The notes below the pieces were generated by a model. The model had not been told where the DNA came from. It searched no databases and saw only the letters and a program-made list of their open reading frames with translations. The translations under genes were made by a program, and so were the position numbers. 64,000 nucleotides of DNA from Pocillopora verrucosa (Eukaryota > Cnidaria > Anthozoa > Scleractinia > Pocilloporidae). Position 1 is the stretch's first letter; each line of letters begins with the position of its first letter. Location: the NCBI RefSeq assembly GCF_036669915.1, contig NC_089321.1, positions 6,927,163 to 6,991,162 of the forward strand. Direction: 5' to 3'. Positions 22,963-46,024 of the stretch are shown piece after piece.

Positions 22963-25900
22963 ATGCTTCCTAAATGGCTGTTTCTGCTCCTTTCACTTTA
23001 TTTCGCTGTGCAGATGGAAGCTGGATCGAGTTTGGGTAAGAGTCTTTATCAGTGCTTTAAGATCAAGCTCTAATGATGCGTACGACACAAATGTATTATA
23101 AAAGAAGACAGCCTTGACACCAACGTCATCCCAATTCTCGGCCAATCTTTTCCTCAAGATTCGACTTAAACTTTCCCCCAATTAAGTTTTTCAGTGTTCC
23201 TATTGAGGAAATGGCTGTGTCATTGCCTTTTCACTCGCTCTAACTGAAGTTCATCGCAGAAAATTTGCCATCTTCTTTGATTTTTTCGGATGTCTTCAAT
23301 CGACCAATAGCCTGCGTGTCGGCGTTAAGGATTCAAGTCCGAGGAATGTTTTGATTTCGCTTATGGTTTGTGTGTTTGATTTCAACATTTTGATCTTAAA
23401 CTGAATATTTCATCGTCTTCGAAGCAATTTCGTGTCATTCTGGGCAATTTTCCGCTTTCATCATTTCCTTAGCATTTTTTTTTATGCGCACGCCTTTTGC
23501 GTCGCACAGCTAAAGCTGTGTTGTGTTCTTGTCCCTGTGAACGGCCACGAAAATTCAGACTTAATTCCTTGACCCTTACGACACCACAAACGATTATCGC
23601 CTTTTTCCGAAACGCTTCGATCAGATACTGATTAACGATATGCAGTAAAATGATCACAGGCTGTACACCGCCGCGAAAATTAAAACCTGTTTTCTTGACC
23701 TTCTCAGCGCCGTCCAATTCCCAAATGAGAAGGGATTGACGAGATTCAGGAAAATAATCACAACCTCGTTAATTTGGGTAGTTCTGGTTTTTAAATTATA
23801 AATCAACGAATAAATCGATTTCGAAGAATTATTTTTATTAATATCGTGTTGAAATGGGATGTGTTCGTTGTATGGTTTTAAAGAAACCTCGAAGACAAGA
23901 TACTTGAGGTAATTTCATTTTCGTTGCCATTGTGGGAACTGTCGCCGGGGTCAGAAAAATTATAGTCACTCAATCACGCCGTGTAAGTGTCACATAATCA
24001 TAGCGTCACGGGATAAGAAAGTTCAAATTAATAGACAGGAAACTACCTAGGAATTAGCCATTTATCATCTTTAGACGTACATGCTTTATACTGTCTTGGA
24101 GAAAAAGAAAATCACTGCGTCAATATGCTATTCTTCAAAGGTCAGTGTGGGTATGATTGATGATGGATAATTTTCAGAGGGGAGGGGAAGGGGGAGGGGC
24201 ACTTGAATAAAGTGTGGATAGGGTACCAGTGTGTCATGGAAGACCTTAGAACTTTGATCATCCGTTCATTTTGCCACTCTGTTTAAGACATTAAGATTTA
24301 TAAATTGTGGCATATCGACCTTAGGCAGCTAAGGCGAGCACATTGGTCGAAGAATAATTTTTAAAGCTAAATGTAAAAACAATTCCGTAAGGACCACACA
24401 CCGTCAAGTTGACAAGCAGTTCAAAGCTTCCGATCCTTCAAGAGGGTAATAGTAACTTGATCACGTGCTCTTAGATCGAATATGGCATTTTATCATCGCA
24501 ATATCCCCTACTCGACCGGCCTTCGAGCAGGCCCCTGATATTTTTAGCGCTGCAGCACGTGCGGTTCTTCACCTGCGGCCTTGAGCAAGAGGGTCTTAAT
24601 GGGTTTAACCAATAGCCGTAAAACGGTCAAAAAATTTATACGGTAGGCGTAAAAATTGACAAATTTTAACCTTTAGTCGTAAACAATGTTAACCGTTAAA
24701 AACAAAATTTTTAGTACAAAAATGGCACACGTTAGCCGTACAATGGCCACAATTCTAACCGTTAGCCGTAAAAGCCATCACCCCATCGAGACCCTCTGAG
24801 CAACGCGAGCTGGCGAGAGGGCTGCCAATGAGGGCCCCTCATGATATAAGCCATCACCCCATTGAGACCCTCTTTCATTGGAACTGTTTCGTCTCCAGTA
24901 AAAAAAGAATATAAAAAAGTTAATTTGAAAAATCCTCTCTTTTTCAGCCTGCATATCACTTGGAGAATCCATCAATGCCTCTAGTGGTCACATTTCCAGC
25001 CCCAATTTTCCCAACAACTATGGCGCAAACAATGTTTGTATCTGGAACATCACGGTACCCGATGGGAAAATCATCAAACTGACCTTTTTGAACTTTACCC
25101 TGATAGCGGGTGAAAACGATGACTGTGCTGGAGCGGCAGCAGATAGTGCCCGAGTCTTTATCACAAACGTTGCCTCTCATGGAGGAAAACCTAATGACTT
25201 TAAGATCTGTGGACAAAAGCTACCCCTTCCAGTGTACTCCGAGGGAAATTTCATTCAAGTGAGATTTGAATCTCGCACCGGCCCTGTAAACAAAGGGTTC
25301 AATGCAACCTTTAAGGCGATAGATGGAGATTCACGTAAGAGCTTTTCTTCTATGGTGGTTCACTAACTGAAAGTATAAAAGTAAACAGTGGAGCATGTGC
25401 TGAGCGAGAGTTTTGTTGAGTATATCATACAATTAATTAAACAATCTTTGAACAGCTATAGTATGTAGAATAAAATATTGCATGTAGTCAAGCCTTTCAC
25501 TCGAACGCAAGCCACTTAGTGAAGTTCACGATCTCTATATTGATTAAAGCATAAAACCGTCAACATACGGAAGATGAACTGTGAGCGGTATTGGAAATTA
25601 TCCATTAGAACAAAGTGGACTGTAAACCTCGTGGAAAATCATCAAAACCAAAACAGTTTTCGGAGAGAAAGAAGCTTCGTTAAGATTTTTCTTTAAATAA
25701 ATTAAGTTTTTCATAGAAAGTAAAATGCATTTTCCTAAAGCTGACAGCCTTTGTTATTCTTTTCAGTGTGCCCAACAGATATGATCCTCGCTGAAACATC
25801 AGGTTCTCTCTCCTCTCCTTTTAATCCAAGAAACTATCCATTCAACCAGGCATGTAGCTGGAATATAACAGGGAAACAAGGATACCGTGTTGAGCTCACA

Positions 25901-28900
25901 ATACCAGACTATAATCTTGAACGTTGCGCTGCTTGCTCGTGTGATTATGTGGAAGTTCAGAATAGCTTCAGTGATGAAGTGCCGCCTGGAAAACTATGTG
26001 GTACACCAAGGGATATTCCTGTCATATTTTATTCGCTGCACGAAAGCCTGAGGGTGGTGTTTGTGTCCGATGATACAAACATGGATTATGACGGATTTGG
26101 GGCAACTTATAAGCTGTTGAACTACAATCCTCCAAGTAAGTAGAGAAAACAACGTCATGAGATCTAAGAGTTCGCTGAGAGAATATGTTTTATGAAATAA
26201 ATTCACCCATACAAGTAATGATAAGGAGCTTAGTTAATAAAATTGGAGGTTTCCTCTGTTATCAACTCAGGGTGAATGCGAACAGCTCTGATATATTGTG
26301 TAAGCGGTGATGTATTGGGAAGCTATGCCAACTTTAATTTATCTCTTAACAATCTTCATATTCTTGAATTAGGGGGTAAGTTTTTAAAGAAAATGTGGTG
26401 CTGTGTCGGTGGGGGAGTATAACAAGATAATTTGGTTTCATCAACTGAGTTTATAATGTAAATTGGTCACCGTAACGAGTTTCAAATATTCATATTCTTG
26501 CCTTGGGGCTACTTCCTTATAAGCACCATATTGGAATGTATCAGACTGAAGAGTATAGTTTTGAGCCGTTTTGGTTTGTATAGATTTTGGCCATTGGTCG
26601 AATCAACAATTAAAAGACAAGCATTTTGATTGGTTGTTACTAATTACTTATTGTCCCACACTCACTTGCTCCTTTTTCATTGTTTACAGTTTGTCCCAAG
26701 GAGGCAATCACTCTCTCAGGCAGCGGCAAAATAAGCAGCACAAACTACCCAAAGAGTAACTACAATGCGTCTAGAGATTGTACCTGGAACATTACCGCGC
26801 CAGCTGACAAAATTGTCAAGTTTAAGTTTACTGACTTTGTCTTAAGTGAGTGTTCAGCCAATAATTGTTCGGATTCTTGCTCTTATGTGGAGCTTTATGA
26901 TGGTGGGTCAACAAGTTCGCCTTTGCTGGGGCGATTTTGCCAGGGGTCGTCTTGGAATGAGACTCAGTTGTCGAGTGGAAACCAAATGTTTGTAATGTTC
27001 CATCCTGGAAAAGCAGTTGCTCGTGGATTTGAAGCGAAATATGAGGGTGAGTACCCTCTCACGTTTATTCTGAATATCGTCTTTTATAATCTTCAAATTT
27101 TCCTCTTACGCGAGTTTGGTCTTGACGCGTTACGCAACCGACTGTGCACTAACTTTCAACTTATTTCACACTTCTATATTTTTAAGAGACAGACAGACTT
27201 TCGCCGCTCACCACGATCACGCTGAGTTACTCTCGCCTTCTTTTGAAAGAAAACGTATTAAACATTTCTATTTCACGTGGATCTCAATGGGGCTAACCGA
27301 TAGCCTTAAAATGGCCAAAAACTTTACACGTTAGGCGTAAAAATTGACAGATTTTAACCGTTAGTCATAAACAATGTTAACCGTTAAAAACAAAATTTCT
27401 AGTACAAAAATGGCACGCGTTAGCCGTACAATCGCCACAATTTTAACCGTTAGCAGTAAAAGCCATTACCCATTGAGACCCTCTGAGCGACGCGAGCTGG
27501 CGAGAGGGCCGCCAGGGATCTGGCACTAATAATGAGGGGCCCTTATTATCAGTCCCAGAACCCTGGCAGACCTCTCGCTTTGTTCGAGACCTTATACTTA
27601 CCTGCTCGCGAAAAAATAATCGGGCGGAAGCACTAATGACGAGGACCTGCGCACAGGCTGTTAAAAACTCGAAGAATTTCTATCATTTTTCCCTTTAGCC
27701 AGCCTGTCAGACGAGTAAACAAATACATTTAAAAATATCGGAATAATTCACGTCTCCAAGTAATTTCGAGGAACGGAAGTCAGGGGTTGGTATCTAAAAA
27801 ATTTTCCATCTTTATATTTATATTCTGCGTTCTTATTTTCAATTGGTAAATTCCACAACAGCTGGAAGTGCGGCCTCTGTGGTCACTTCGTTTGTTAAGC
27901 CGTTTGTTAGTCCGTCATCGCCAGTTTTGCCTCTGTCGTTCGCATCCCCTAATTCATCTTCTGCTGAACGTACAGCATCACCGTCTGTAATGTCTTCCTC
28001 AGTCTACTCATCTGCTTCTCCAACTTCGTCTGCTTCTCCAACTTCGTCTGCTTCTCCAACTTCGTCTGCTTCTCCAACTTCGTCTGCTTCTCCAACTTCG
28101 ACTGCTTCTCCAACTTCGTCTGCTTCTCCAACTTCGTCTGCTTCTCCAACTTCGTCTGCTTCTCCAACTTCGTCTGCTTCTCCAACTTCGTCTGCTTCTC
28201 CAACTTCGTCTGCTTCTCCAACCAGCAAATCAACTGTCCAAGTGACAGGTATGTGTATGGAATTGTGTTATTAAACATATTTACATAAAACGCTTTCCAA
28301 ACTATTTTGTGTTTTCCAAAATAGCACATTTTTGGATAAATCAATGGTTTTTCTCCATGTTTCATTAAAAATGAATGAGAATTACGTGATTTAGAACATT
28401 GATTGACATTTAAGCTTTGTACTTTGCATCACATTTCAGTCAGTAAATCAGTTTCAAAAGGAAAAGTTTTAGTGTAATTTGCTAACCTGAAACAAGCCTT
28501 TAAGCTAACTTGTACCCAGCGGCCCGCCACAGAAATCGAATAATTGCAATATCGTCTCAATAAACAACAATCAAATAATACGATTTGTGGTGGATCAGTT
28601 CATCGGCATTACTTTCTACGCGGAACACTCTACATGCAACCACTCATACACTGGGTGTCCCAGAAATTCTGCGAACACTCATACACTGGGTGTCGCAGAA
28701 ATTCTGTGACTACCCATACACTGGATGTTGCAGAAATTCTGCGACCACTTATACACTAGGTGTCGCAGAAATTCTGCGAACACTCATACACTGGGTGTCG
28801 CAGAAATTCTGTGACCACTCATACACCTGGTGTCACAGAAATTCTGCAACTACTCATACACTGGGTGTCACAGAAATTCTGCGAGCACTCACGCACTGGG

Positions 28901-31900
28901 TGTCGCAGAAATTCTGCCACCTTTCATACACTGGGTGTCGCAGAAATTCTGCGACCACTTATACACTGAATGTCACAGAAATTCTGTGACCACTCATAAA
29001 CTGGATGTCGCAGATATTCTGCAACCACTCATAGAATGGACGTCACAGAAATTCTTGGACCATTCGTACACTGGATGTTGCAGAAAATCTGCATCCTCTC
29101 ATTCACTGGAAATTCACCCATGACGTAATGGATACAGGAATATAGCAGTCGTTTCCTAACCTGTCAATAACAGATGCCACAAATATTCTGTCAATTAACT
29201 TTCAATAGGAATTATGTACAATAGCACATGGTTTTAATGCAATATGATAAAATTTAGAATATAAAAATTTTAAGAAAGTAAGCAAAACAAAATACAGTTC
29301 AAGTCACATCACTTTGTTATGTGATCAGAAACAAAAACTAAATGAACAATATTATTAACTCTATCAATTAAATAGAATTTTGTTATCTAGCAAATGAGCA
29401 ATCTACTTTAGCCAAAATATATTAACAAGTCACAATTTCAGTCCTTTAACCTATTTTAAAAGATTTGTATATGTAATGAAAAGAGTACAAATACATCATT
29501 TGACTTGGTAAAGTTCACAAGGGAAATTAATGCTCAACCTTCAAATGAAAACCTTACACTCTTCACTATCCAAGGGGAATATGCTAAATTGACAGGATCA
29601 CAGATTTGAATTAATATCCCCAACAATATTTATGATAAGGAAATATGTAACATGTGTGTCTCAATTAAAAAGGGCTAAAATAAGCTTCTAGAAAAAATAA
29701 TCCTCTCTCTCTGTCAGCTGCAACAATGTTTCCCGAATAGGAAAAAAAATCAAACCGTGCCATGTTGTCTAATGAGTGACAAACCGATGAAAGGGAAAAC
29801 GTACTGGAGAACCACTCCACAAAGCCATTTTGAGGGCGCCTTCTGATTTTGCCGGGTTCTACACGGAAAACAACGACGGAATCCAAGAACTGAAATAATT
29901 CACTAATTTTTAGCCAAGTGCATTTCAACCAAAATCAACTATGTATCGTATCAGTTTTCGCGACAACAAAATTGGCCCAAAACGTGCCTCTATCCAAAGT
30001 TTGTGATTTCTACATCTCCAACGAGGACTTAAAACATACAAGACACAAAATAAGTGATATTGTAGACTAAGACATGACGATTCGATAAGCATTTAGTAAA
30101 ATTGTATCTATATCGGTGATCTCGCAAACATGCGCCTGGCAAACAAAGTTTCGCTCAGACCACTTATTGTTACCTGATCGCTTTGACGAAAGGCGAACGC
30201 TCGAAACGTCGGCTTTGAAACTCTTTACGGTGGCCAACTTTTTACGTTATCAACTCAGTTGATAATACTAAATTACATTTATCGTTACGATACGTTACGA
30301 TTTAAGTTCGCGCTACCTGTCATTTGTTAAATCGTGTGGAAAAAAATAAGGTAGGTGCTTTGAAATGCATGTATATTGCACACTTCTGACCTCTTATCAA
30401 CCCTTAGATTTGACTTATCGGCACTGAACTGACTGCGCGTAATACTTTGTATTCAGGTGTTCCTAACTTTACCTTCCATTTCTAATTGACTCCCTAAATC
30501 CAGAATTATTTCTCCATAAATGAAAGATTCTGCACTCAAAGAATTGTTTGAGTCATCCAAGTCAACCCACCGATCTTCGTTGGGAAGTCTTCCCTTTGGT
30601 GGTGATTCCGGAATCATAAAAATCAACATAGCTCGTAGAACTGGGAGATGTTTGCGGTGTACTCGCCATCATCGGTTGAAATATTTTTGTAGGACGGATA
30701 CAAGTTAACTCCACCAAGAGTGACAAGAGCGCTTAGCAATCAAAAAAGACAAAAGCTCGATTATTAAGATATCATGAGCGGATGTTGGCGGTTTGTAAAA
30801 CAATAGGTTGAAAGAACTTTTGTCCCTCATTAGTGAAATTGCACAGTGAACAGCTTACGAGTTCTAGTCGAAATACTAAACCTTTTTTTCGCCGATTAGG
30901 TACATAGTGCATATGAATGGACACTTCATATCTTTGACTAGGCCTACCGTGCGCGATAAGCGTGAGAAAGTCATTATCGATTAAGCGAAACCTTAAGCTT
31001 TTCGTCACGGCTCATAAGTTATATAATTAACTTTACTTGAGTGCATGCCAGTGTTGCTATTGAAAAACATTTATCTCATATGAATTAATGACGATATCGT
31101 CACTCGGTAAAGGTGATGTAAATTCGGTACTAAGTGTCCTCATTCCAAGGTCTTCTAACTTTAAATTTCTTTAAAAATGAACGAATCATCTTATTCTGCA
31201 ACAGATGAGCTATTTATTCCAAGACAGATTTACTTCCATCTTTTCTTTGATTAAACGAAATTTTAAAAAAAGTTAAAAACAAACCTTTTTAAGAATCTTA
31301 AATGTGTACAAAATTTAACTAAACGATTTTTCATTCTTTTTTCTTTCAACAACTCCCCTTTTGGAATTTGATTAAAGGCCTGAGTTATAACTAGTTTTAT
31401 TTAATAAAGCGGCTATAGGCCTCTGTTAAAAGCCTTTAGTTTCCAAACTGTGGAGTAATTTTCACTAGTTTATCCTGTAATTCAAAAAGCATTGGACGTC
31501 AAACCTTGCAGAAGTTCTGCAGCCCTGCAGAATTTCTGCATCATTGGACGCCATACTATGCAGAATTTCTGCATGGTTGGGCCGTCAAACCTTGCAGAAT
31601 TTCTGCAGCATATGACGTCGTACCTTGCAGAATTTCTGCAGCATTAGACGCCATACCATGCAGGATTTCTGCAGCTTTGGACGTCAAACCTTGCAGAATT
31701 TTTGCAGTACGGGTCGTAATACCAAGTCAAATAAAACTAAAAAAAAAAACTTGAAAAAAAACGCTTAAATATATTGAGGGCTAAAATCATAGACTTAATC
31801 GTTCCATTTTTAAAAGTGCAGAGCATTATGTGCACTTTGACCAGAGTTAACAACCAACGCAGTTAAAAATTGATTATTTGTATGAGTAAAATTGACCGAA

Positions 31901-33331
31901 ATTTAACTTCCCGTTGAATTATACAAAATGTTGCTCTTTTAAAGCAACACATTTCTTAATCCGTGAAAACTAAAGCATTTTGCTTTTATTACATAGGAGA
32001 AATTTCCGTGTTTTCTACCTAAATAGTGCTGCTTTGAGGCCAACATTTCACTGTGTCTGGGAAAGAGCCATTTTTCACGGAAAATGCTATTTTGGAAAAC
32101 ACAAAATAGTTTGCAAAGCGTTAATTAATTAGTAAGAAATTTAAAGTTAGGGGTTCTCAGTGAATGATAACGGCGCCTATCACACTTGACTACAGTGTTC
32201 CATAAAATTGTGTCTGAGATATTTTTTTTCTTTACGCTTCTACGTTGCCATCGATTTTCGCATCGCCATACCTAAGTTGTCGCAGTAATCAGGTAAGAAA
32301 GCGCTCACTGGATCTAGCAAAAATTCGACGTCAATCTTAAGTTAGCACTGTAACCTCTAGAGTTTATCAACCATTTGTTTGACCCAATATGTCCTAAACC
32401 TTAGCATTGGCACTTGTGATGTACTTATAACCTTTCTCGACGAAGCGCAAGGACAAATAGAAGCTGTTTAATAACAATTTATGTTTGAAAAATGTTGCCA
32501 TATCTCTGTATGATCACTAAAGCCATCATGACCAGCTCATTTTTTAAACACTTTGAAGTAGCAGAGGAGATATCTACTTTGGAAAGCGATAAAAAGTTTT
32601 AAGAAGTCTTCCTGCCATTAGATATCTCGTATCCTCCTCAACTGTTATGATGTAAGATTTCAGTGGCTTATAAATTTGATTAGACTCGATTTTAGAATAC
32701 AACTTATCACTGATCTCTTCGCTGAAATTCCAGGGGTCATTGGTTCAATTCAACTTCTCAGTTGGCTGGTTAATCATTTTTTCTCCTCTGTTCGCAACCA
32801 TGTTGATTTTAAGCATTGATCTCGTAGTACTCAATGACCTCATGCGACTGTTCACAATCATTACAAACTTCTCGTGTGATTTATTATTTATATTCAGGTT
32901 CCCCAGGTCCCACGCAAACCAGTACGACTCGGCCACGTCAGACCGCTAAAGGGAAAACTATCGGGCCATTGGAGGTAGTAGGATTCTGTATCCTTGCAGT
33001 ACTTGTTGCCGTTGTTGCTATTTTTGCCATTTATTACGTAGCCTGTCGAAAGCGGGAGGAAGACGAAGGCTCGAACGAGCCGATGGTTGACGTACCTGCA
33101 CGTAATTCAGCTAAACCAAAAGAAACGGAAATTGGAATAACTCACGACGCATTTGTGGGAGACTCAAATAGTCCAACGGAAGCTTCTGTTTTTAAACCGG
33201 AAGCCATGGCTTCAGTACCGGAAGTTAAAGTTCAAGAACCAGCAGCAAATGCTTCGGAGGTAAAACCAGATAATAAGGAAAGTAAAGAAACTGAGGCCGA
33301 CGTCGATGGCACTCATGACAGTGCGTTGTAA
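22963..33331 (+). CDS. Type I membrane protein with three CUB domains, Ser/Thr/Pro stalk and GITH-motif tail
   Basis: Probable cell-surface receptor or adhesion protein; I do not recognise the family. Six exons: 22963-23035, 24948-25334, 25767-26135, 26690-27046, 27862-28248, 32898-33331. All introns are phase 1, so the modules are interchangeable. The product is 668 residues. Signal peptide 1-22 (MLPKWLFLLLSLYFAVQ). CUB1 about 25-150 (SSPNFPNNYG, four Cys), CUB2 about 154-272 and CUB3 about 277-392, with the WNIT glycosylation site in each; CUB2 and CUB3 have extra Cys (CAACSC, CSANNCSDSC). Stalk 396-525 with twelve SASPTS repeats. Membrane helix about 551-574, then RKREED. The tail holds EIGITHDAFVGDS (602-614), shared with the two genes downstream, and ends D-S-A-L. 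Confidence 0.85.
24592..24870 (+). mobile_element. R3 repeat element, copy 1 (about 30-base internal period)
   Basis: Lies in CUB gene intron 1. It begins with a worn CTTAATGGG and ends near CCCATCGAGACCCTC. Inside, TAGCCGTAAAA or a variant recurs at 24613, 24644, 24674, 24733 and 24763, mostly 30 bases apart. The same sequence is at 27281-27550 and, degraded, at 35593-35760. The flank GACGCGAGCTGGCGAGAGGG-type block is shared with copy 2. Confidence 0.6.
26398..26475 (+). mobile_element. Penelope-like relic fragment
   Basis: The stretch GTGTCGGTGGGGGAGTATAA to TCACCGTAACGAGTTTC matches the ends of the relic at 17995-18150 but lacks the central CTGACGA...GAAAC part. Confidence 0.4.
27281..27550 (+). 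mobile_element. R3 repeat element, copy 2
   Basis: Lies in CUB gene intron 4. Better-kept ends: ATCTCAATGGGG on the left and CCCATTGAGACC at about 27468-27479 as an inverted match. The internal TTAACCGTTAGTCATAAAC and GTTAGCCGTACAAT blocks match copy 1, and the block CGACGCGAGCTGGCGAGAGG is common to both. Confidence 0.6.
28011..28226 (+). repeat. 18-base coding minisatellite, 12 units (SASPTS)
   Basis: Twelve contiguous 18-base units TCTGCTTCTCCAACTTCG in frame in the stalk exon of the CUB gene. Unit 6 starts with A (Thr for Ser) and unit 12 ends in ACCAGC. The near identity of units points to recent expansion. The encoded Ser/Thr/Pro stretch is a likely O-glycosylated stalk. Confidence 0.95.
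28642..29113 (+). repeat. 35-base minisatellite with palindromic core, about 13 units
   Basis: Tandem 35-base units built on ACTCATACACTGGGTGTCG followed by CAGAAATTCTGCGAAC. Each unit holds the palindrome GCAGAAATTCTGC. Units diverge towards the right end. Because 35 is not a multiple of 3 and the repeat is open, shadow reading frames appear in several frames; none looks like a gene. Confidence 0.93.
30160..30275 (+). mobile_element. Penelope-like relic with hammerhead-like core, copy 2
   Basis: ATCGCTTTGACGAAAGGCG, CTCGAAACGTCGGC and GTTATCAACTCAGTTGATAA match the relic at 17995-18150. The core is TTGACGA at 30183-30189 and GAAACGTC at 30203-30210, so the first hammerhead strand has one base changed. 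Confidence 0.45.
31490..31722 (+). repeat. 33-34 base minisatellite with palindromic core, about 7 units
   Basis: Units of the form GCATTGGACGTCAAACC followed by TTGCAGAATTTCTGCA. Each carries the palindrome TGCAGAATTTCTGCA, almost the same core as in the array at 28642-29113, while the linker between cores is unrelated. Confidence 0.9.
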
Positions 33332-33823
33332 GAACAAGAAGAAATATTTTGAAATTATTTTAAAACCAACTAGAAAATTCCCTCGACTGGTATCAAAATG
33401 TCTCTTTCATCACGAGTATGCTACAAGGCTACCGCTCTACATGATGCATAACTTTTTCTGAACATTCCTAGACTTATAAAATTTTACAACACTAAACCTT
33501 TTAACGCTTAAACACCAGGAAGTGATCAATTTGTACCTTCTTCTTACAATATCTATACATTATTCAACCGACGCGTAATGAAAAGAGACAAACGAACCAG
33601 CTAGAGGGTGTTTTCTTGATAAAATACCATATTCTCTGAACTAGTTCCTTTGGGAAATGTAAGGCAGCTAGAAACGAGAAATACAAATCAAATTTTGGGA
33701 CGGTAGCCTGCATTACCTGTTGTATTATCCATTATATTACTCAGAGTTGTCCTTAGTTCATATAAGGCTGCCACTTTTGGACCCCTGGATGTATTGTTTC
33801 AGCATAACTATTGGCATAAATTG

Positions 33824-33829
33824 AATAAA
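33824..33829 (+). terminator. Possible polyadenylation signal of the CUB gene
   Basis: AATAAA about 490 bases after the stop codon at 33331, the first clear one downstream. Confidence 0.4.
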
Positions 33830-34709: not shown

Positions 34710-35271
34710 ATTGTTATACTATTTACATCCTCACGTTTTTTTGCCCATTAAGTCACGTCTTCTATTCTGTTGTGAAGTCCAGTAGTTAAAAATATTTTGT
34801 AAGAGCAAATGTGTAAATTGTTAGCAATAGATATATGATTTGGAGTTGTTTTCTGTGTATTTTTTTTATCAGCATCCTAAACAAAAATAGTTCCAGCATA
34901 GTTGTAAGCATATGACTGTGCAAAATGGGGCAATGGTAGCAGCGTAATATGCAATTTTTCTAAGCCTGCTTTCGTTAGAGGCTCATTCCATCGAATACAA
35001 CCTCATAAAATGCCAAATAGGTTGCGCAGACTTCTAATTTATTTAGTCTTATTTTTTCTCTTCTGTAAACATCTGCGCTTGGAAGGTCGGCGATCGTTAA
35101 TTGTGTCTACATATGAAATAGCTGGTCGGGACTCGGTCTGTCTCGTCCCAACCTTTTCTCGTACAGAAAGATGTAGCTTCCTGTCAAAAGAAAAACAAAC
35201 TGGGTCATGTAGATCATGGCTAACAACATGCAGACGGCCGAATTACCGGGTTCGCCAATGTATGATGTAAA

Positions 35272-35344
35272 ATGAACTATGAACATTGTTTGACGTCTCT
35301 GTTCGTCTCTTTCCTACTGGGAAATCTCAGTTTTGTTGCGAAAG
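35272..35344 (+). CDS. Signal-peptide exon 1a, copy 1 (alternative first exon of gene 2?)
   Basis: ATG starts 24 codons (MNYEHCLTSLFVSFLLGN...) plus one base, then the donor GTAAGA. The phase 1 end matches every downstream exon of gene 2. Its paralogue at 41651-41723 has the same 73-base length, and the CUB gene first exon is also 73 bases. It may be an alternative first exon used instead of 36967-37054, or a remnant of a lost gene. No AG acceptor is needed for a first exon. Confidence 0.55.
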
Positions 35345-35592
35345 GTAAGAAAAGCTTGTTCAAGTCATGGAGGTCAAAATTTACCACCCACTATGCCCCC
35401 GTACCCAGACAAAATGTTTAATGTTCCGATAATTAAGATGAGCTCATGGTAAGTTTCATTGGGCATGATCGACCTCAGAACATGCTGTTGCTGTTGCCGT
35501 TGTTGTATATTTGTTCTTCTTTCTTTAAGATGAAGGAAGATTTGTCGCGAAGTGACATGTAAACAAACAGAGCAATAAGATTAATAATGTGG

Positions 35593-35760
35593 TTAACCAC
35601 TAGCCGTAATATGGCAAAAATGTGAAGCCGCTAGAAGTGACAAAACAAAAAGTAACCGTCAAAACTTTTTCTGTTAGACTTAGAGGAAAGAAATTAAACC
35701 TCAGCCGTAATATATACTAGGCTGGAAAAGCTATCACCCTACTGAGGCTCTCTAATAAGG
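35593..35760 (+). mobile_element. R3 repeat element, degraded copy 3
   Basis: GGTTAACCACTAGCCGTAAT, AACCTCAGCCGTAATA and AGCTATCACCCTACTGAGGC correspond to parts of the R3 copies at 24592 and 27281, with many changes. Confidence 0.4.
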
Positions 35761-36399
35761 CAACATAAGAACAACCTTGGCGGGTAACAGTTACTCTCTG
35801 GCCGGCTGGTTCAGTTGGAGTCTTGTTCAGTAACATGGTGTGGGCAATTTTGTTCGTTGTCCCAACACTGAGCAGTTAAGTTTTGATAAAGATGGCCTGT
35901 TGGCGTCAATATCAACACCGCAATTTACAGTGAACGGCTATAATTATCGCACTCCACCCATCAGTTATCATCGAAAATCAAACTGTGACCTCGCTTGCTG
36001 ATATATACTATCTGCGATCCTCATTGGATCTCGCTATGAGAGTTTCTCTTTTACAACTATGGTCGTTAGTTTTCACTGGGATCGCTAGAATTTCATAGAA
36101 ATAAGTTATTCTAACCCTCTAACGCGTAACAGAGGTTGGCATACCACTTACGATTACTTACAGTTTTTTATCATCATTAAGAGGATTTCAGCCAACACCG
36201 GAAACTTACCGTAGCTGTTTCTAATAACTTAAATATTAGTAATGTTTGCTGATATTTTGGTGGAAATTTATTGACAAGCTCTAGAGATATTAAGGGAGAT
36301 GTGACCCACAATCTGGTATCCAAAACTCAACAGACAAAACGAGATGTTGGCACTCATCAAATGATTTGAGATATAGTATGAGGCAAACGTATTTTTATC

Positions 36400-36660
36400 T
36401 AATCAGCTGCAAATGAGGTTTAGAAGAAGTCCATAGTAGTTTAGCAGAGCAGAAACACAGTAAATGGTTTGAATCCAGGGGTAGATAATGAAGACTGCTC
36501 GTCCGGGTGAGTGTAGTCCAGAGAAGGAATGTTGTCACCAGTGGTGACTGACGTTTCGACAACTTGAGTGGAAGGCAAAGGCAAGTCAACTTACTTGGCT
36601 CTGATGATATGCCTTCCGCTGAGGTTGTCGAAACGTCAGTCACCACTGTGACAACCGTTA
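36400..36660 (+). mobile_element. Penelope-like element relic with inverted repeat and hammerhead-like core
   Basis: Arms CAGTGGTGACTGACGTTTCG (36539 on, to 36563) and its reverse complement at 36624-36648 flank about 60 bases. The right half reads CTGATGA (36601-36607) ... GAAACGTCAG (36630-36639), the core order of a type I hammerhead. The motif GACTGACGTTTCGACAAC is familiar from Penelope-like repeats of marine invertebrates. Confidence 0.5.
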
Positions 36661-36966
36661 GTGGGGGAGTCGGTAGGGGAATGGGGGGGGGGGAGAGAAG
36701 AGGGGAGTTTATTGGTCGACGTGGATTCCCGAACTGCCTTGCGTCGGTACCAACATTATTACATTATCACAGTGGCTTTGCCAATTTCCTTGCCTGGGGT
36801 CCTCCTCCTCCCCCTCGAAGCAGATATGCACCGTTGATGATAACGTGACCTTTAAGATTTCGGTACTTGTCATTTTAATATTAGACATTAGAAGCAGACT
36901 TACACTGTTACTATTAAGGTGGAATTCATCAGCTCTCGATCTGAAGGAAACTTTCTCGGGTATAAA

Positions 36967-39797
36967 ATGTCTCAGAATTTTCTGTGTTTAGGTCTGTGCC
37001 TTTGTAACGTTCTATTTATGAACATTCAGACCGCTGATTCCTCTGCCCCAACAGGTAAGATAAAATAATCTCCTATTAAATTACTAAGTTAAATAATCCT
37101 AATCCTGGATAAGGGTTTTCTTACATTTCTAGTCTCTAAGTGTAGAACTCGGAAAAGTTAAAAAATGTCCCCCTTTCCCACACTTATTGTTGAGAATTTC
37201 CGCTCTTTCACAGATCGTGTAATTTTTTACTTCACGTAAGATACGTGCGGAAATTTCCTAAATTGCAAAGTAACTGACCACTCTAAGCTTCATAAATGTA
37301 TCCAAGCTTGAAATCTTAACTTGGAGGCTTGATAGACTGGATAATTCATAGAAACAACCAAGTGGTTGTTTCTTCATTTCTCGTTGTATTTTCAATCTGC
37401 ATACTGACCCGGAAACTTCGTTGAGATTTCGATACTACAAAGTTATTTGGGATATATACACTCACACCTAATAGTACGTGTTTGCTCTGATCCTCGAGTT
37501 AAGTTTTTAAGTCTGCTATCTTTAAAAATATTTTCCATCTTTTGTGTTTTGACTTATAACAGTAATTTAAAAAATCCTTACAGGCTAATATATTATGCAA
37601 AATTGATCACATTCTTGAAATTAGGTTCCGCTACTTGTCAGTGTAAACAGTTTCTGCATTGATTATAGCAAGTGCTCTATTGTTCGAGAGAACTTCGATT
37701 CTTACTTTTATTTTAACTCGATATGATTTTCCTCCTCTGCAATGGTTAGGCACTAACATGTTAAATTTGTTTTAGGAATAATCTTCGTTCATTATTCTGT
37801 TACAGTTCATTCCTGTTCTCATAAATACTTATCTGATCTTGCGAGATTTCCGCAATTCATTTTAGTGCGTCCTGTTTCAGTTTCCATCATGGTCTTTTAG
37901 ATTGTTTTGAACTTTTTAAAAGAGAGGGTAAGATCGGAAATTTACAGGCGTTCAGTTTTCACACAGTCATGTTTAAAGTTATACGTCTCCAATTAAACAA
38001 ATGAAAAAGAATCCGTGTGAACGTTACTTAAATTCAATACTGCATCGGAAAGCTTAAAAATCATCAGAGAAAATCGATATTTATCAATAATAGATAGAGT
38101 ATTTGGCCACTTGATTCCTTTGGACCTGTTCCTCGCGAGTGAAAATATTTGGTCGCTCATAACATCCACTACCTGCATTGTCCTCATGAGGGTGATGCTA
38201 CAAAACATTAATTGCAATACAAAATTATAATGTCGATTCTTAGACAAATCAGGCTCGAAATTTATAATTATAACTTCTAACTACACAACACTTCATTCAG
38301 GGAAAAGGTCTGACTAGTACTTCGTGTTTTATACAATTTAATTTAATACGTTTTATATATTAAGTGATATTGCAGGAATTTACGTTTCTGAATGTTATAA
38401 TGGAAGTTAGGGGTATAGAGCTGTTATCCATAACCTTGATCTCTAAATTTACATTTCCTCTTTCGCTTATCAAACAGAAAATTCCTCAAGAGAGTCAACA
38501 CTTTCTGCGCCAGAGAGAGGTAAGCGTGTAATCAAACATGTCTAAACTAACTAGTATGAGAATAAAGAGTTAATTTTTTTTGAAAATTTCAACAAATTTC
38601 AGATGATCCAACTGGGGCAATGCTACCCACATCTACCCGCGCACCTGACCAAAAACTCGCTCGCGTTTTTTTTTTCACTCCTCCGCTACTATCACACAAT
38701 TTCTGTTCCGCTCCGTTTTGCACTCTGAATGCCTGGTACAGGCTAGATTCATTGACTCACGCACTACTTGTAAAAGACTGAACACTTTAACACAGACATA
38801 TTTTCCGTATATTTTCATCGAAGAGTAAGTATAAAAGCATAATCTGTAAGAGGGTCTGAACAAAATAAACCGACTTGCAACAACTGACTACCGACAAAAC
38901 GCAAAAGCAATTACCAATTAGCGACAAGAAAATATTAAGCGACAAAGGAAATGGTTCAAAATTATCGATGTTTATGTATTCAGAAAGAAGAGCATTCTGC
39001 TTAAGAGGTAGACAACTCAAATTTAAGAATTTTTCAAACTTTTTAACGGCAGTGAAGGAGCGCGGGCTCATTCTGAGAACAACGTCCGCCCACAACGTAT
39101 GTGAATAATTAACTTGCATTTTGAATCATTTTTCAGATTTACTGACTACCATTAGAAATACAAAAATTTAACCGACTACCCACAAAGTGATGAAGTTCTA
39201 ACCGACAATCGACATGAGGACTCCCGGCCCCATTCCGACATTGCTGCAAGCCTTCCACCTATCGAAACAAATGATTAGCAGATCAGCAGAGTCTTGTCGG
39301 TAGAAAAACGTTTTTTGCGCTTACTCAAAAGTATGAGATTCAAGTACACCTGACGTACAAATCGATATAAGTTTTTGATCACTCGAAAATTATTCATGGT
39401 CGCCTTTTATTTGTTACGGATATAAATTTCTCATGCCCTGGAAGGGAGTAAAGCTTAAGTTTGTTAGGGGACATTTTCCCCAATTATTGAATATCAATAG
39501 TATTGCGCTGCTAAATTTAAATTAAATTTCGTTCTGAACTAGAAACTAAGACATACTTTTTCTTTCTCAGCTTGGCGTTTAAGCGGGTTTGTTATCGCCT
39601 ATTTCGTCACCTTGGCAGTAGTTGCAGCCATGCTTTACTGGTTGTCACGCCAAACGAAAAAGGATACGACAAATGGAGATGAGTTACAGATGAACACGTC
39701 ACCGCTGGAAGTTGGCATAACTCACCAAGCAGTTGCTGAAGACTCCGAGAGTCCAGAGAATGTTACAGTTCTCTTTAATGACAACACAAAGTTTTAA
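36967..39797 (+). CDS. Gene 2: short type I membrane protein with GITH-motif tail
   Basis: Small surface protein of unknown function, paralogue of the gene at 43416-46024. Exons 36967-37054, 38478-38519 and 39571-39797, all phase 1, give 118 residues. Signal peptide about 1-23 (MSQNFLCLGLCLCNVLF...), an ectodomain of only about 20 residues rich in Ser, a membrane helix about 49-68 (GFVIAYFVTLAVVAAMLYWL) and a tail with EVGITHQAVAEDS (90-102) ending N-T-K-F. A Ser/Thr/Pro stalk exon like that of gene 3 was not found. Exon 1a (35272) could replace exon 1. The small middle exon is the least certain part. Confidence 0.65.
37055..39570 (+). other. Introns of gene 2
   Basis: AT-rich, with the small exon 38478-38519 and the exon relic at 38603. 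I see no other coding sequence. Confidence 0.55.
38603..38665 (+). pseudogene. Relic of the stalk-to-membrane exon of gene 2
   Basis: After an AG acceptor, the frame reads DDPTGAMLPTSTRAPDQKLA, which parallels the start of the gene 3 membrane exon (DTGGKTTEAPSRSEKKLL at 45690). In gene 2 the frame then runs into a T tract and a stop near 38782 with no phase 1 donor. The membrane part reappears at 39571. The ancestral exon therefore looks split by about 900 bases, with this piece skipped. Confidence 0.5.
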
Positions 39798-41650
39798 GTT
39801 GAGGACAAAAAAAAATACATAAACTTCATTTACATTGTAAATTCTTGTAGATTTATCTACTAAACACCATTCTACTTCAGTACCACCGTAGTAGTTCGCT
39901 ATGCGGGCCTTAGTATCTTAGAATAGCTGACTCGCTTTATATCATCGATCGAGTAACGTCGAGTAAGAAAATTAATCAGAAAAATGGGTTTTAGAATCAG
40001 CAAGATTGTTGTAGAGTCTTATCCATAGCAGCTCTACGGCTAAGGAACAGTCGGCCAACTTAAATGCGTCTCTCTCTTATTCATTTTGATTAGAAGAGTA
40101 TTTCTTGAAAACATCGATGCTATGATGCCCGTTTACATTACCTGGATAATCTTAAACACGGCGTTTTTATTAGTAAAAAGCTACAAAATCCTTCGTCCAC
40201 ACTAGGAAATGGATGATAGTTTTTAGTCCACAGCAGAAAATTGAACGGGAAGATCATCTCCAGCTACTACAGTTGACTGCATCCTCGGGCATGCGTAAAA
40301 CAAGTTGTTGTTTTTTTTTTCTATCACGGCAAAAAAATAAAAGAGCGGTTAAGTCAGCGTTTTCTTATAACAAACGAAGACACAAAGCCATTGTTTTCAA
40401 TTTTGTGAGTAAGTTGCACTTTGTTTTTGGTAGACTGTTTGGACGAATTAAGTAGCCTGACTGGTGGACGTAGCCGTAGAAATAGATTCTTAATCTACGT
40501 AGTGTGGACGAAGCGCTGATCATTGAGGTTAATTCCTCTCGAAATCATTTCTATCTGTTTACAGTTTGCATGTTAGACGAGATTTTCAAGGAGTGGAAAT
40601 GTCCTAGATCTTCCGTAAATGTACTTTGTGGGCAATTATTTCAAACCCGGCTCGACATCGGAGGAAACGATCTCCGTTTTATTAGTAGTTTTTTAGGTTA
40701 TAGAGTTTTTAACATTTGCAAAAGACTTATCTGTGGCACCTTCAAGACTGTGGAATAGGGCGTCGACTTCACTGCGTGTCAGCGAAATTCTGAAATTTTT
40801 ATAAGGAAATAACGTCCCGAAACTGAATAAAAAAATATTTAATTCTTAACGCTACTTGCGCGATTATAAAGAAGAAACTACCCGTTCGAAAACTTCCTTC
40901 AAAGGTGCTGAAAACTCGATTTTAGACGACGTCATTTAAATCGATTCGGAAAGCTGTCTGCGCACGTAAGACCCACGGTTTTCAAACACCTGCAGCTCAA
41001 GTTATTTCTAGAAATGAGTCAAGGACACCTTTTCTTGTGGCGCCAAATCTTCAATCAGATCTCAAAGAGATAAAGAAAGTAGTGGGAGACTTTGTTTCAT
41101 TCGACTCGAGTAATCACGGAGTTAGCTAGCTGGGCAAGATTAAAAATGGCGGCTCCCTGCAACCTCAAAACGCATTCAACTTTTTATGATTCCGGCGATA
41201 CGCAAAATTCACAGTTAGGAGCAAATGCATTTGAAAAACGTGATCGATATTGTGATCGATATAAAGCGCAGTAAGGACCGGTAAGTTAGTATGATTCCGC
41301 ACTCATCTTTTCCGGCCTTTTTCGGCACTCATTTGAAAATTGCCTTACAATGGATATTATTGGATCGGATACGACATAAAATAAAAAGAAAAAAACTGGC
41401 TGACGGTCGATTGGAATACTTTTTGGTCGTATTGTGTCTCTTACAATCGAGCATAGAGGGAAAGCGATTCGCAGATTGTGGTTCGTACGGGAACTGGCTG
41501 GGTCGAGACGCAGTGTGTCTCGTTCCAATCTCCTCTCTTCTGAGGTTTCAGCGTCATATCAAAAGGAAACAAAATGGCTCACCATTGAAGCCCACCCGGC
41601 TTACTGACGTCTGACGGTGAACCGGTGGAATTGGAAATATATGTTTTAAG
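39798..41650. other. Gene 2 3' side and start of second duplication unit
   Basis: No gene. Holds the MITE-like element at 40191-40513 and, from about 41400, sequence homologous to the upstream side of 35272. Confidence 0.5.
40191..40513 (+). mobile_element. MITE-like element with perfect 14-base inverted ends
   Basis: CTTCGTCCACACTA at 40191-40204 is exactly inverted as TAGTGTGGACGAAG at 40500-40513. The 323 bases between have no credible protein. A target-site duplication is not obvious. A related stretch after gene 3 (about 46480-46760) keeps some of the internal sequence but not clear ends. Confidence 0.65.
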
Positions 41651-41723
41651 ATGACCTCAGGACACTGTTTGACGCCTCTATTCATTTCTCTCTTGATTGG
41701 AAATTCCAATTTTGTTGTTAAAG
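41651..41723 (+). CDS. Signal-peptide exon 1a, copy 2 (alternative first exon of gene 3?)
   Basis: Codes MTSGHCLTPLFISLLIGN... plus one base, then GTAAGA. Same 73-base length and phase as 35272-35344, with which it shares HCLT, LF, S and GN residues. It stands 1765 bases before the MSQN-type exon, against 1693 in unit 1. Confidence 0.55.
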
Positions 41724-42120
41724 GTAAGAAAAATTAGTTTAACTCGGAGAGCTCCAAATGAAGTATGGATGGTGCCCTATATCCAGAAGGAATGTTGAGT
41801 TTACCATCATGGTTACGAGTTCTTAACAACTGCATGGGGTATCGGATCGATCTTGAGTCATGTTCTTGATGTAGTAGCTAAAGTTTTTCCTTAGGTTACT
41901 GTTTTTCTTTTCTCTTTTCTTACTGGAATGCTGCAGATATTTTTGATATCCAACATTTTGACAAACGTAGCAACATACCCTCCAACAGCCATGGAAACAG
42001 TTGCTCTTGAGATAGTTATTTCATGTACTTCAATTCATTTTCAATTTCAGTATACCACAACATCATAACCTGCCACAGAAAATTTTGTTCATAATTCCTA
42101 CCCAAAGCAGTTCATCCGTG

Positions 42121-42378
42121 TCAAATCTGTTAGTCAATATCAACACCGCGCTTCAACCGCTGCGAACAGAAATAATTATTAAACCACAGTAACGCGTTCA
42201 TCTTTGTCAAATCTGTTAGTCAATATCAACACCGCGCTTCAACCGCCGCAAACAGAAATGATTATTAAACCGCAGTAACGCGTTCGTCTTCGTCAAATCT
42301 GTCGGTCAATATCAACACCGCGCTTCAAACGCTGCGAACTGAAATAATAATTAAACCGCAGCAACGCGCTCAATCACG
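42121..42378 (+). repeat. 86-base tandem triplication
   Basis: Three units start at 42121, 42207 and 42293 with TCAAATCTGT and contain GTCAATATCAACACCGCGCT and AAACCGCAGTAACGCG. Gene 2 has a single related copy at about 35904-35960 (GTCAATATCAACACCGCAAT). The expansion therefore followed the gene duplication. Confidence 0.9.
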
Positions 42379-42829
42379 AACCTGACCTCGCTTGCTACCT
42401 ACGATATTGTGTTGTTTCCGCTTTATATCATAATGAGAGTACATTTTCATTTGATTGCTAACAGTTACTAAGATCGCTGAAATTTCTTAAAAAGAAGCTG
42501 AGTTAGGCCATTAGGGTTAAATAGCATCTACTGATCTAAGAATTTCAACATTTGATTTTTGATGATAAATGGGATTTTAGTCTAATACCGGAAATTGATT
42601 CGTTTTGCCAGCTGGACTCTGGCGGAAACTCGATCGATGAGTCGCAGTGATCCATGGTATTGGATTTCTGCAGGACGAAGGGGGTCGAAGATCTGTCATT
42701 TTAGAAAAAAATCAGTGAGCAGATAATAGGGATTGAAAGGTCCAGACAAGAGAAATAATTGATTTAAAAAAGGAAAAAGAAGAAGGAAAAAACCATACGC
42801 TTAGAATCTTAAGAAAAAAGCGGAAACAG

Positions 42830-42836
<7 letters not shown>

Positions 42837-42860
<24 letters not shown>

Positions 42861-42862
42861 GT
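42837..42862 (+). repeat. GT run and G homopolymer
   Basis: GTGTGTGTGTGTGT is followed directly by a run of about 18 G. Simple sequence; its length may be an assembly artefact. Confidence 0.8.
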
Positions 42863-43415
42863 GCGTCCATCTACTCCACTTGTTGCACAACAGGGAGGGG
42901 GGATATGTTAGCTCGCTCTTGGGGTTTTGTTTCCAAAGCTTCAACGATTTTCGAACTGGCTTTATACGATCGTGTCGAGACGCACTGGACTGAGGGAGAA
43001 ACTTAACTGCAAGTCTGTTGCTAATATCGCTTTTCAGAGAGCAAAAGTTCGATTTAATTCAATACGTAAATTTTTGGGTAAGTATCGAATCGACGTTTTC
43101 GCTGTATCGTTATTGTAATTTAAAAAATGAAGTAGCAAACTGGATTTACTGATGTAGCAAACACAATGTTCGGTGGAGCGAACAAGTAGCGAATTCGAAC
43201 CGTAGAAAACCGGAAATGTAACGAAACCGGCTGCTGGAAGACGATTTCCTTACCCAAGGTCCCCTCTCCTCAGTGGTAGATTTGCATCAGCGGTGATAAA
43301 CAGATCACTCGGTTCAGGGTCGATGATTATCGGTCGGTTGAATCAGACTGACGGTGCAACTCTTCACGTACAGCCCATCGGTGTTTGATCCGAAGACTCA
43401 TCTCTCAAGCATAAA

Positions 43416-46024
43416 ATGTCTCAGAATTATATGTACCTTTTTCTCTTCCTCGGTTACGTTTTATTTTTGGCCATTCCGACCTCTGCTTCTAGCTCACCAG
43501 GTAAGATAAAATAATCTCAAACTGATTTGTACAACCCTATCTGAGGGATTTTGCTAAATTTGTAGTTTCTTGATAAAAAAAACCTCAGTGTTGAAAGCAA
43601 AAACGTCACACATGCACGTACGGATTCAGTTTTTTTTTTTGTTGATTGATGAAAGTTTCCGCGCCTACACAAACGACCGCTTAAATTTCCTTCACTGAAG
43701 TAAAACGCTTAACCGATTTTAATTTTCGATCGAGACGGAAATCGCGTTAATTGCTGAGTAGCAGGCCATTATAGGGTTCATATAGTTAGCTAAGCTTGAA
43801 TTTATAATGTGGAGTCTTGCCAGACTGCCCAACTGATAGACTGATCGATGGCCGGATTTTCTTTTCTACGTTTTTGACAGAATTTTCGTAAGGACCAGGA
43901 AACTTTGTCCCGTTTTGATTTTTAAGGTTATTTGGGATACATACACTATACCCTAAATAATAAATTTGGGTGATGATCCTTGCGTCAAGACCATTATCTT
44001 CTAGCACATCTTTACAGTCGATTTTTGTGTTTCGAGTAAATCAGCTAAACATTATTAGTTTCCGGGGCTATCAATCACTTAATATTGTGATTAACTTCCA
44101 TCAGTGTTAACTGTTGTAAGAGGATTCATATTTTAGCCATCACTTTCGCTTCCTATCACTCTGAAAAGTGTAAACAGTTTCTACATGAGTTACATCAAAT
44201 GCTCTTTCAAAAAACCTAAGATACTTGGGTTTTTTTTTAGTTTAACTTGACATTGACATGTTTCCTCCGCCTCGGGAGTTTCCTATACATTTCTTTCCAA
44301 TAAATATCTTTTTTCAGTTTTTCTGTTTGTAATTTATAAATGGACATGCTTTTCCTGTCCACCGTTTCCAGTTCGAATTTGGAATGAGGTTTTTAGTGGA
44401 GGGACGAAAACCTGAGGACCTGGAGGAAAACCCTCGGAGACTCGGAGCCAGAGCGAGAACCTTCAAGAAACTCAAACCACATGTGACGCCAACTCCGGGA
44501 ATCGAACCCAGGCCACAGCGGTGGGAGGCGAGCACTCTCATCACTGCCCCATCCCTGCTCCCAGTAATATTTACCCAGGGATCACGGATCTCTTCATAGC
44601 AAAACCGAATTGTTTTTTTTTTTCATTTGAGACTCAAGATCCCGAATACCGAAGCCAGTGCCGCTCTTAAATTCTTTGCGCATCTTCCGACGGGTCACTC
44701 CAAACATTAAGTGATATTGTAAGAATATAGCGCTCTAAATACTTTCAAGAAAGGCAACGTTGATGTTTTAGTCATTTTTCATTATCATATTTATATTCCA
44801 TATTCCTCTTTTTTAAACAACGCCTTGTCCATCATCAACAGTTTCGCCTACACCTTTGTCTTCATCTAAATCCTTCCCATCAGCCCCACCAGCGTCACCT
44901 ACACCTACAGCTTGGTTTTCAGCTCAATTCTTCCCATCAGCCCCACCAGCGTCACCTACACCTACAGCTTGGTTTTCAGCTCAATCCTTCCCATCAGCCC
45001 CACCAGCGTCACCTACACCTACAGCTTGGTCTTCAGCTCAATCCTTCCAATCAGCCCCTCCAACGTCACTTACACTTACAGCTTGGCCTTCATATCAATC
45101 CTCCCAATCAGCCCCACCAGCGTCACCTACACCTACAGCTTGGTCTTCAGCTCAATCCTTCCTATCGGCCTCTCCAGCGTCACTTATACCTACAGCTTTG
45201 TCTCCTACAGGCGGCCCATCAACTGCCCAAGAGAAAGGTATATGTGTTAACATGTGACATTAAACACATTTACTCTGACTTTGAAGTTCTCAGTATTAAG
45301 GCAGTGGGGACACTTCCGTGTTTACTAAAAAAGATTTCCTTATTTCTGCGTATGTTATCATCGTTTCTCATTTTACCATGGCATAAATAGAGATAAATTA
45401 TTCGTTGGAAAGTGCGAACGAACGATTTTTGTTTACAAGTTGCGATGCATCAAGTAACTCACTCAGGAAAAGCTTTTAATGTAAAATCTTTTTTGCGCTC
45501 GGTCTGTATTCATGACGTCGAGCCAAATATTCTCCCGTTTAGGCCTCTCACTCAGTCAATAATATAAGTTCATGGTAGTTCCCCTTTCAGCGTTTCTCAA
45601 AAAGCGAACCTAACTGAAATCCAAGAAAAACTTTGCGTTCTCATGACAAATTTCTTCTCCAAACAACTATTTTTTTTTCTTAACTCTAGACACAGGTGGG
45701 AAGACCACTGAAGCCCCGAGTCGGTCTGAAAAGAAATTATTAATCGGGTTAGTTGTTGCTTATATCACCGTCCTAGTACTTGTTGCGGTCACCTTCCACT
45801 GGATATCCCGCCGGGAAAAAATGAAAGCAGCAAAAGGAACTGAGTTCGAGATGGACGCGTCAGCGCTGTGTGGATCAGCGGCAACAAGGTTGGGGAACAT
45901 CAGTGAACCGGAAGTTGGCATAACTCACCAGGCATTTGCTGAAGACTCTGAGAATCCAGCGAATGAAACTGTCCCTGAATCACAGGAAGTTCCTGTTCAG
46001 TTTTCGGAAGATACGAAGTTTTAA
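43416..46024 (+). CDS. Gene 3: type I membrane protein with repeat stalk and GITH-motif tail
   Basis: Paralogue of gene 2 with an intact stalk. Exons 43416-43500, 44842-45237 and 45690-46024, phase 1 throughout, give 271 residues. Signal peptide about 1-24 (MSQNYMYLFLFLGYVLFLAI). Stalk 29-160 with nearly six 19-residue repeats (SAPPASPTPTAW...). Membrane helix about 177-199 (LLIGLVVAYITVLVLVAVTF), then RREKMK. The tail has EVGITHQAFAEDSENPANE (235 on) and ends E-D-T-K-F. The stalk is likely O-glycosylated; the function is unknown. Exon 1a at 41651 is a possible alternative start. Confidence 0.75.
44335..44562 (-). mobile_element. tRNA-derived SINE
   Basis: Read on the minus strand the element begins GGGAGCAGGGATGGGGCAG, an A-box-like GGCAGTGATGAGAGTGC follows, and GGTTCGATTCC (44508-44498) is a perfect B box. 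A GC-rich tail with GGTTTTCC-type blocks follows, as in widespread marine invertebrate SINEs. It lies in gene 3 intron 2. Confidence 0.8.
44877..45206 (+). repeat. 57-base coding minisatellite, about 5.8 units
   Basis: Units of 57 bases encode PSAPPASPTPTAW plus six residues, in frame in the gene 3 stalk exon. The first three units are nearly identical; later units diverge (LTLTAWPSYQ, LIPTALSP). The unit is unrelated to the 18-base unit of the CUB gene. Confidence 0.92.

Follow-up and report, generated by a model that had tools for sequence, protein, structure and literature searches.

A candidate chimeric CUB receptor and its GITH-tailed neighbours in the coral Pocillopora verrucosa

In the mammalian CEACAM family of paired receptors, heads that gene conversion keeps near-identical are joined to differing membrane and tail parts, and one member has acquired a new transmembrane exon, according to the part of the account available to us (PMC7042247). 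Near-identical heads on different tails with conversion are thus known, and so is domain shuffling in corals: the skeletal-matrix proteome of Acropora names REJ, ZP, mucin4-like and CUB classes, and its authors invoke domain shuffling, again in the part of the paper available (PMC4890752). Here we analyse a stretch of 64,000 nucleotides of the coral Pocillopora verrucosa (assembly GCF_036669915.1, contig NC_089321.1, positions 6,927,163 to 6,991,162; in the following 'the window'). It contains three neighbouring plus-strand genes, G1, G2 and G3, that are predicted to encode surface proteins with a common tail motif (GITH), and G1 additionally carries a head of three CUB domains with many near-copies elsewhere in the genome. 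From the sequence it appears probable that G1 is a chimeric receptor in which a travelling CUB head came to sit on an older, headless, local tail family.

Like the paired receptors, the head-bearing loci of this genome combine near-identical heads with different membrane or tail parts, as judged by position and strand. They differ from the CEACAM proteins, as far as those are covered in the available text, in that CUB domains replace the immunoglobulin (Ig) heads and that the stems are of the ZP-, REJ/PLAT- and NIDO/AMOP/VWD-type. Moreover, the tails of G1, G2 and G3 hold no tyrosine and consequently, unlike CEACAM, neither an immunoreceptor tyrosine-based activation motif (ITAM) nor an inhibition motif (ITIM). 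Some stem classes are shared with the coral skeletal matrix, but the CUB proteins described in the available part of that study have a single CUB, a Thr-rich part and no other known domain (PMC4890752), whereas G1 has three CUBs, a helix and a tail. The same part does not describe a three-CUB head on REJ, ZP or mucin4 stems. The literature searched showed no description of near-identical three-CUB cassettes preceding such a range of stems, which does not prove that none is in print.

CDCP1 resembles G1 in placing its CUBs ahead of one helix, and two Pfam CDCP1 CUB models score above cut-off in G1 (36.8 and 31.2 bits; cut-off 27); however, the general CUB model (PF00431) fits three stretches of G1 far better (E 1.4e-59, 199.7 bits versus a curated cut-off of 21.4). 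The tail of CDCP1 carries Src-type tyrosine sites, and G1 was rejected as a CDCP1 on account of its tyrosine-free tail. In neuropilins a CUB pair is followed by F5/8-type and MAM domains, neither of which gave a Pfam match in G1. The tandem CUBs of cubilin (3kq4, E 2.3e-44), PCPE-1 (6fzv, E 1.5e-24) and neuropilin-2 (8ivw, E 2e-17) match G1, but the match is limited to the CUBs, and no further domain of these proteins has a Pfam match in G1.

Three genes with a common tail motif

All three genes yield open proteins after GT-AG splicing with every intron in phase 1; exon use is predicted from the sequence, and the spliced models reproduce the outer limits (22963 and 46024) of the initial annotation. 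G1 (22963-33331, 668 aa, ending in DSAL) begins with a leader, followed by the three CUB exons, one mucin-like exon and a helix-tail exon with the stop codon. G2 (36967-39797, 118 aa, ending in NTKF) consists of a leader, a 42-nt exon and a helix-tail exon, and G3 (43416-46024, 271 aa, ending in DTKF) of a leader, a mucin-like exon and a helix-tail exon. Each tail exon has a single hydropathy peak for a membrane helix. Splicing, hydropathy and the shuffles described below bear out the annotated trio of signal peptide, spacer, one helix and common tail motif. The Ser/Thr/Pro ectodomain that had been assigned to all three does not apply to G2, whose modelled exons leave only ~20 ectodomain residues; the end of its 42-nt exon aligns with that of the G3 mucin exon, as though G2 were a form without the repeat array. 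That CUBs are restricted to G1 agrees with Pfam, which gave no match above cut-off in G2 or G3; weaker matches there (CD34, Orf78, MFS and others) fell below cut-off and were rejected.

The mucin-to-tail intron of G1 is 4.6 kb long and filled with repeats, which leaves some room for two genes having been wrongly joined, one with the CUBs (up to CUB3 or the mucin exon) and one with mucin, helix and tail. We regard such a misjoining as improbable: the phase-1 joints are compatible at all five introns of G1, no leader exon with a start codon was found between 28248 and 32898 (although no systematic search was made), and copies on contig C14 are likewise ordered as head, Ser/Thr-rich (S/T-rich) stretch and helix.

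The tails share the 13-residue motif E-[IV]-G-I-T-H-[DQ]-A-[FV]-x2-D-S, and in a six-frame scan of the whole window the strict pattern has no match beyond these three. The best ungapped 13-mer identity is 9/13 for G1/G3, 8/13 for G1/G2 and 12/13 for G2/G3; when one tail was shuffled 1000 times, these values were reached 0, 2 and 0 times, respectively. The sharing of the motif therefore exceeds chance. When the 95-aa tail of G3 was searched against the 353-Mb own genome, it matched three places, namely G3, G2 (E 1.3e-7) and G1 (E 0.25), and the G1 tail matched itself and G3 (E 0.42); in the own genome the two queries thus match just these three loci. In viral and prokaryote collections searched with the alignment of the tails, 0 of 28 and 0 of 45 pattern matches were confirmed as relatives, as expected for an animal gene. 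The initial annotation knew of no named family with the motif, and indeed no Pfam family matches it and a full-text literature search with spelling variants returned no paper.

Cut behind the helix, the tails are acidic, and Pfam recognised no signalling motif in them. The C-termini SAL, TKF and TKF satisfy the class I PDZ ligand pattern [ST]-x-hydrophobic and are predicted PDZ ligands, as annotated; they amount to two independent observations rather than three, since the TKF of G2 and G3 is inherited from a common ancestor.

Outside the motif, the helix region of G1 gives no DNA alignment with G2 or G3. At the motif, DNA identity is 91% over 56 bp between G2 and G3 and 77% over 57 bp between G1 and G3. 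These identities, together with a pS of 0.20 between G2 and G3 in the motif versus 0.39 in the helix, would suit a block that is alike through recent conversion among neighbours rather than through function. We consider this unlikely, as the protein flanks fall to 27-40% identity and yet the block is kept in all three genes; the sites are too few to prefer conversion.

The CUB head and the parts that follow its copies

The 371-residue CUB head of G1 was searched against the own genome, where it gave at least 125 exon-level matches with E <= 0.001; 110 of 379 candidates were scored. Counted by hand from CUB1-type rows of at least 66% identity, the near-copies number ~34: 32 such rows (G1 included), one split copy and one intronless copy. 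They lie on contigs C4, C5, C6, C7, C10, C12 and C14, and many of them are clustered in tandem. A lone CUB3 exon also occurs on C3 (6.42-6.44 Mb, L033/L034) within a large tandem-repeat array with units of ~0.85 kb.

The three CUB exons of G1 and their introns form one copy of a ~2.4-kb cassette. Copies on C7, C10 (two) and C12 are 89-94% identical to G1 in exon DNA and, in ungapped columns, 81-83% in the intron between CUB1 and CUB2 and ~87% in the one between CUB2 and CUB3; gapped BLAST gave 72-81% in the alignable parts of the former. The homology starts directly before the CUB1 exon and ends within the intron behind CUB3, so that both the leader and the tail of G1 lie outside it. Conserved DNA lies ahead of the C7, C10 and C12 heads, but it reads as non-coding and revealed no leader exon. 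CUB domains bind protein ligands, often via calcium, and among the CUBs of G1 only CUB2 keeps the set of acidic residues that we take to be required for calcium binding. Ratios of nonsynonymous to synonymous divergence (dN/dS) of 0.14-0.84 in the pairs listed (for G1 versus the others 0.27-0.48 in CUB1, 0.39-0.68 in CUB2 and 0.18-0.39 in CUB3) indicate that the compared heads are under constraint. Some positions vary freely, such as two residues in T-P-R-x-x-P-V of CUB2 (13 copies).

Downstream DNA was read for 14 copies besides G1 and the intronless copy, and in 11 of these recognisable but differing parts follow on the same strand. Both C10 copies, at 5.63-5.65 Mb, continue with EGF-like exons (Pfam EGF 5e-29 in the first copy), ZP-N (1.1e-15 in the first copy, the one tested) and a helix. 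On C7 a CAP domain (1.3e-15) lies 1.1 kb behind the head, and within ~10 kb there follow a NIDO match that stays below its cut-off (4.4e-5, 24 bits versus 25), AMOP (1.3e-8) and VWD (3.9e-5; 24.4 bits, cut-off 22.9); a further piece gave no Pfam match. Copy L044 on C5 is followed by two REJ stretches (1.1e-36 and 2.8e-22) and PLAT (1.2e-17), a polycystin-1-like arrangement in which CUB3 and REJ meet at a joint with phase 1 on either side. Two further pieces of this locus had no Pfam match, one of them showing a helix and, by eye only, a GPS-like stretch. Four C14 copies (L041, L045, L046, L047) continue with an S/T-rich stretch and a helix, and the C4 copy with additional, more distant CUBs. 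The link is less sure on C12, with Ig domains downstream, and on C3, where S/T-repeat or S/T-rich frames and NIDO (1.1e-12) lie downstream of CUB3.

The GITH tail occurs in none of the other stems read; the tail of L046, for example, reads KWKKQKNEDVPQPEMESLKQKSDN by eye and is unlike it. Mutual tblastx among the C14 genes for conserved tails returned mostly transposon and CUB sequence. Frames of reverse-transcriptase and GIY-YIG-like type, Penelope-like by eye, were seen downstream of the heads in L041, L042, L045 and L048.

Several features bear on the route by which the head may have spread. The cassette of G1 is bordered by two direct copies of a dispersed repeat; among the 40 of 1030 candidates scored, the best copy elsewhere is 83% identical. 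In a tandem array on C14 (L023, L025) a shortened copy of this repeat stands between CUB3 of one unit and CUB1 of the unit behind it; since the repeat separates the array units, the bordering repeats of G1 look like spacers of such an array. At C5 15.954 Mb (L026 3871-7159) an intronless copy of leader, CUB1 and CUB2 stands directly before a reading frame of the long interspersed nuclear element (LINE) type, the endonuclease match of which (1.2e-5, 25.6 bits) is below the cut-off of 27.4. This copy has the CUB1-CUB2 joint expected from the G1 model, and over 36 bp the end of its leader is 97% identical to an exon of a C14 gene. It represents a complementary DNA (cDNA) of a CUB-head gene caught beside a retrotransposon and provides fossil evidence, for the family though not for G1 itself, of transcription and of splicing as predicted by the models. 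Finally, over ~26136-27125 two C5 copies (L021, L022) match G1 at 96-97% identity, while the readable part of their CUB1 (161 and 185 bp aligned) is only ~80% identical to G1. This contrast indicates that the G1 head is a mosaic and that exchange between chromosomes has gone on.

Order of events and possible function

The tails are common to the three genes, whereas the head exists in many copies of low divergence with sharp limits of homology and differing downstream parts; these points are observed directly. Synonymous divergence between the CUBs of G1 and those of the C7, C12 and first C10 (C10a) copies is 0.11-0.21. Between G2 and G3, dN and dS, compared in four segments, are 0.24 and 0.68 in a 73-nt upstream exon, 0.37 and 0.32 in the MSQN leader exon, where no constraint is visible, 0.43 and 0.55 in the helix region, and 0.11 and 0.24 in the GITH motif. 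The head hence looks younger than the split of G2 and G3, if by a thin margin, and G1 has most likely gained a travelling head or had its own replaced by one. The initial annotation had spoken of one receptor plus two headless relatives and thereby made the CUB form the starting point, a framing that the data do not support. They agree better with the reverse, in which the headless genes are the older local family and G1 bears a head from a genome-wide set of near-copies.

The main rival, which we hold to be unlikely, is that the CUB head was ancestral to all three genes, that G2 and G3 lost theirs and that conversion makes the head of G1 look young. The overwriting evident from the C5 comparison shows that such replacement happens. 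On the other hand, tblastn (E up to 1) found no CUB relic elsewhere in the window, the introns of G2 and G3 included, and an ancestral head is hard to reconcile with the position of the G1 leader and tail outside the head homology and with the lack of a GITH tail on the other stems read and of further matches of the G1 and G3 tails in the own genome.

Several points nevertheless weigh against a gain by G1. The divergence of G2 and G3 in the motif and in the MSQN exon comes close to that of the head, which makes the age margin thin, and each segment compared there has 12-31 synonymous sites. An old head may also appear young through gene conversion, and G1 is a mosaic. The links between heads and stems were read from position and strand alone; three of the 14 copies have no clear stem (L042 and L048 on C6 with reverse-transcriptase-type frames behind the head, and L043 with an S/T stretch and no assignable helix), and on C12, where Ig frames lie ~5 kb downstream, the link is less sure.

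Under a gain of the head by G1, the local family would have consisted of mucin-like or very short single-pass proteins, as represented by G2, G3 and the spacer, helix and tail of G1, with a tail that combines the GITH motif with an acidic, PDZ-like end. The phase-1 exons of the three CUBs, together with their introns, would then have been put between the leader and the mucin exon of G1, by insertion or replacement, and head and downstream parts would be spliced together. The head would supply a ligand or docking partner common to other head-bearing surface and matrix proteins, the mucin spacer would raise it off the membrane, and the GITH block with the C-terminus may serve as an anchor or in signalling, via a partner that all three proteins share. 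G2 and G3, with the same tail but no head, could compete for this cytoplasmic partner, as the initial annotation suggested, by taking up part of it, or may simply coat the membrane.

A more far-reaching and doubtful proposal is that the three-CUB head serves as a common recognition or docking key on polycystin-like, ZP, mucin4-like and short mucin stems. REJ and ZP proteins act in gamete contact in other animals. If the proposal is true, exchange between loci keeps the head near-identical across stem classes, cells, gametes or the matrix, apical and skeletal, recognise or hold each other through it, possibly like-to-like, and G1 couples it to its own cytoplasmic partner via the GITH tail.

Evidence of exon shuffling has mostly been drawn from old lists of domains. 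In this genome a cassette with introns and bordering repeats can be traced between gene contexts, its exons mostly still 88-97% identical in DNA to those of G1, and its route, through units of tandem arrays, a dispersed repeat, cDNA associated with a LINE and exchange between loci, is therefore directly testable. If the downstream parts are spliced to the head, one binding head is common to several protein classes of the surface and the matrix within a single animal, and the GITH-tail family offers a way into its intracellular role.

Feature coordinates and minor observations

Table 1. Features of the three-gene locus, in window positions; exons are predicted.
Feature	Position	Strand	Basis or remark
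G1 leader exon (MLPKWLFLLLSLYFAVQMEAGSSL)	22963..23035	+	phase-1 donor
Dispersed repeat, left copy, bordering the cassette	24591..24827	+	90% to right copy over 237 bp
Region homologous to other head copies at DNA level	24937..27484	+	start 24937-24940 (24589 in C4 copy), end 27277-27484
G1 CUB1 exon	24948..25334	+	phase 1 to 1; Pfam
G1 CUB2 exon	25767..26135	+	splice model, Pfam
G1 CUB3 exon	26690..27046	+	splice model
Dispersed repeat, right copy, bordering the cassette	27279..27514	+	direct copy of left one
G1 mucin-like exon	27862..28248	+	18-bp repeats (SASPTS)
G1 helix and GITH tail exon, end DSAL	32898..33331	+	motif 33128-33166
G2 possible alternative leader exon (MNYEHCLTSLFVSFLLGNLSFVAK)	35272..35344	+	likeness to G3 counterpart; coding signal weak
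G2 leader exon (MSQN...)	36967..37054	+	splice model
G2 42-nt middle exon	38478..38519	+	splice model
G2 helix and GITH tail exon, end NTKF	39571..39797	+	motif 39708-39746
G3 possible alternative leader exon (MTSGHCLTPLFISLLIGNSNFVVK)	41651..41723	+	likeness to G2 counterpart; coding signal weak
G3 leader exon (MSQN...)	43416..43500	+	splice model
G3 mucin-like exon	44842..45237	+	57-bp repeats
G3 helix and GITH tail exon, end DTKF	45690..46024	+	motif 45911-45949

A second exon of signal-peptide-like sequence, 73 nt long, ending in a phase-1 donor and similar in both genes, lies ~1.7-1.8 kb upstream of the leaders of G2 and G3 and had not been listed in the initial annotation. The pair are possibly alternative leaders. 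Their coding signal is weak, since dN and dS in the other two frames are similar to those given above (0.28 and 0.51, 0.30 and 0.53). An acceptor ahead of the MSQN exons that would join both leader exons was weighed by eye and judged weak. In G2, between 38603 and 39570, DDPTGAMLPTSTRAPDQK stands behind an acceptor-like site and may be a former start of the helix exon, now ~0.9 kb away from it.

Neighbouring genes were recognised by eye: 8896-11484 on the minus strand with an F-box and leucine-rich repeats, 19517-20137 on the minus strand with MORN repeats, and 53215-55211 on the plus strand, secreted and VWC-like.

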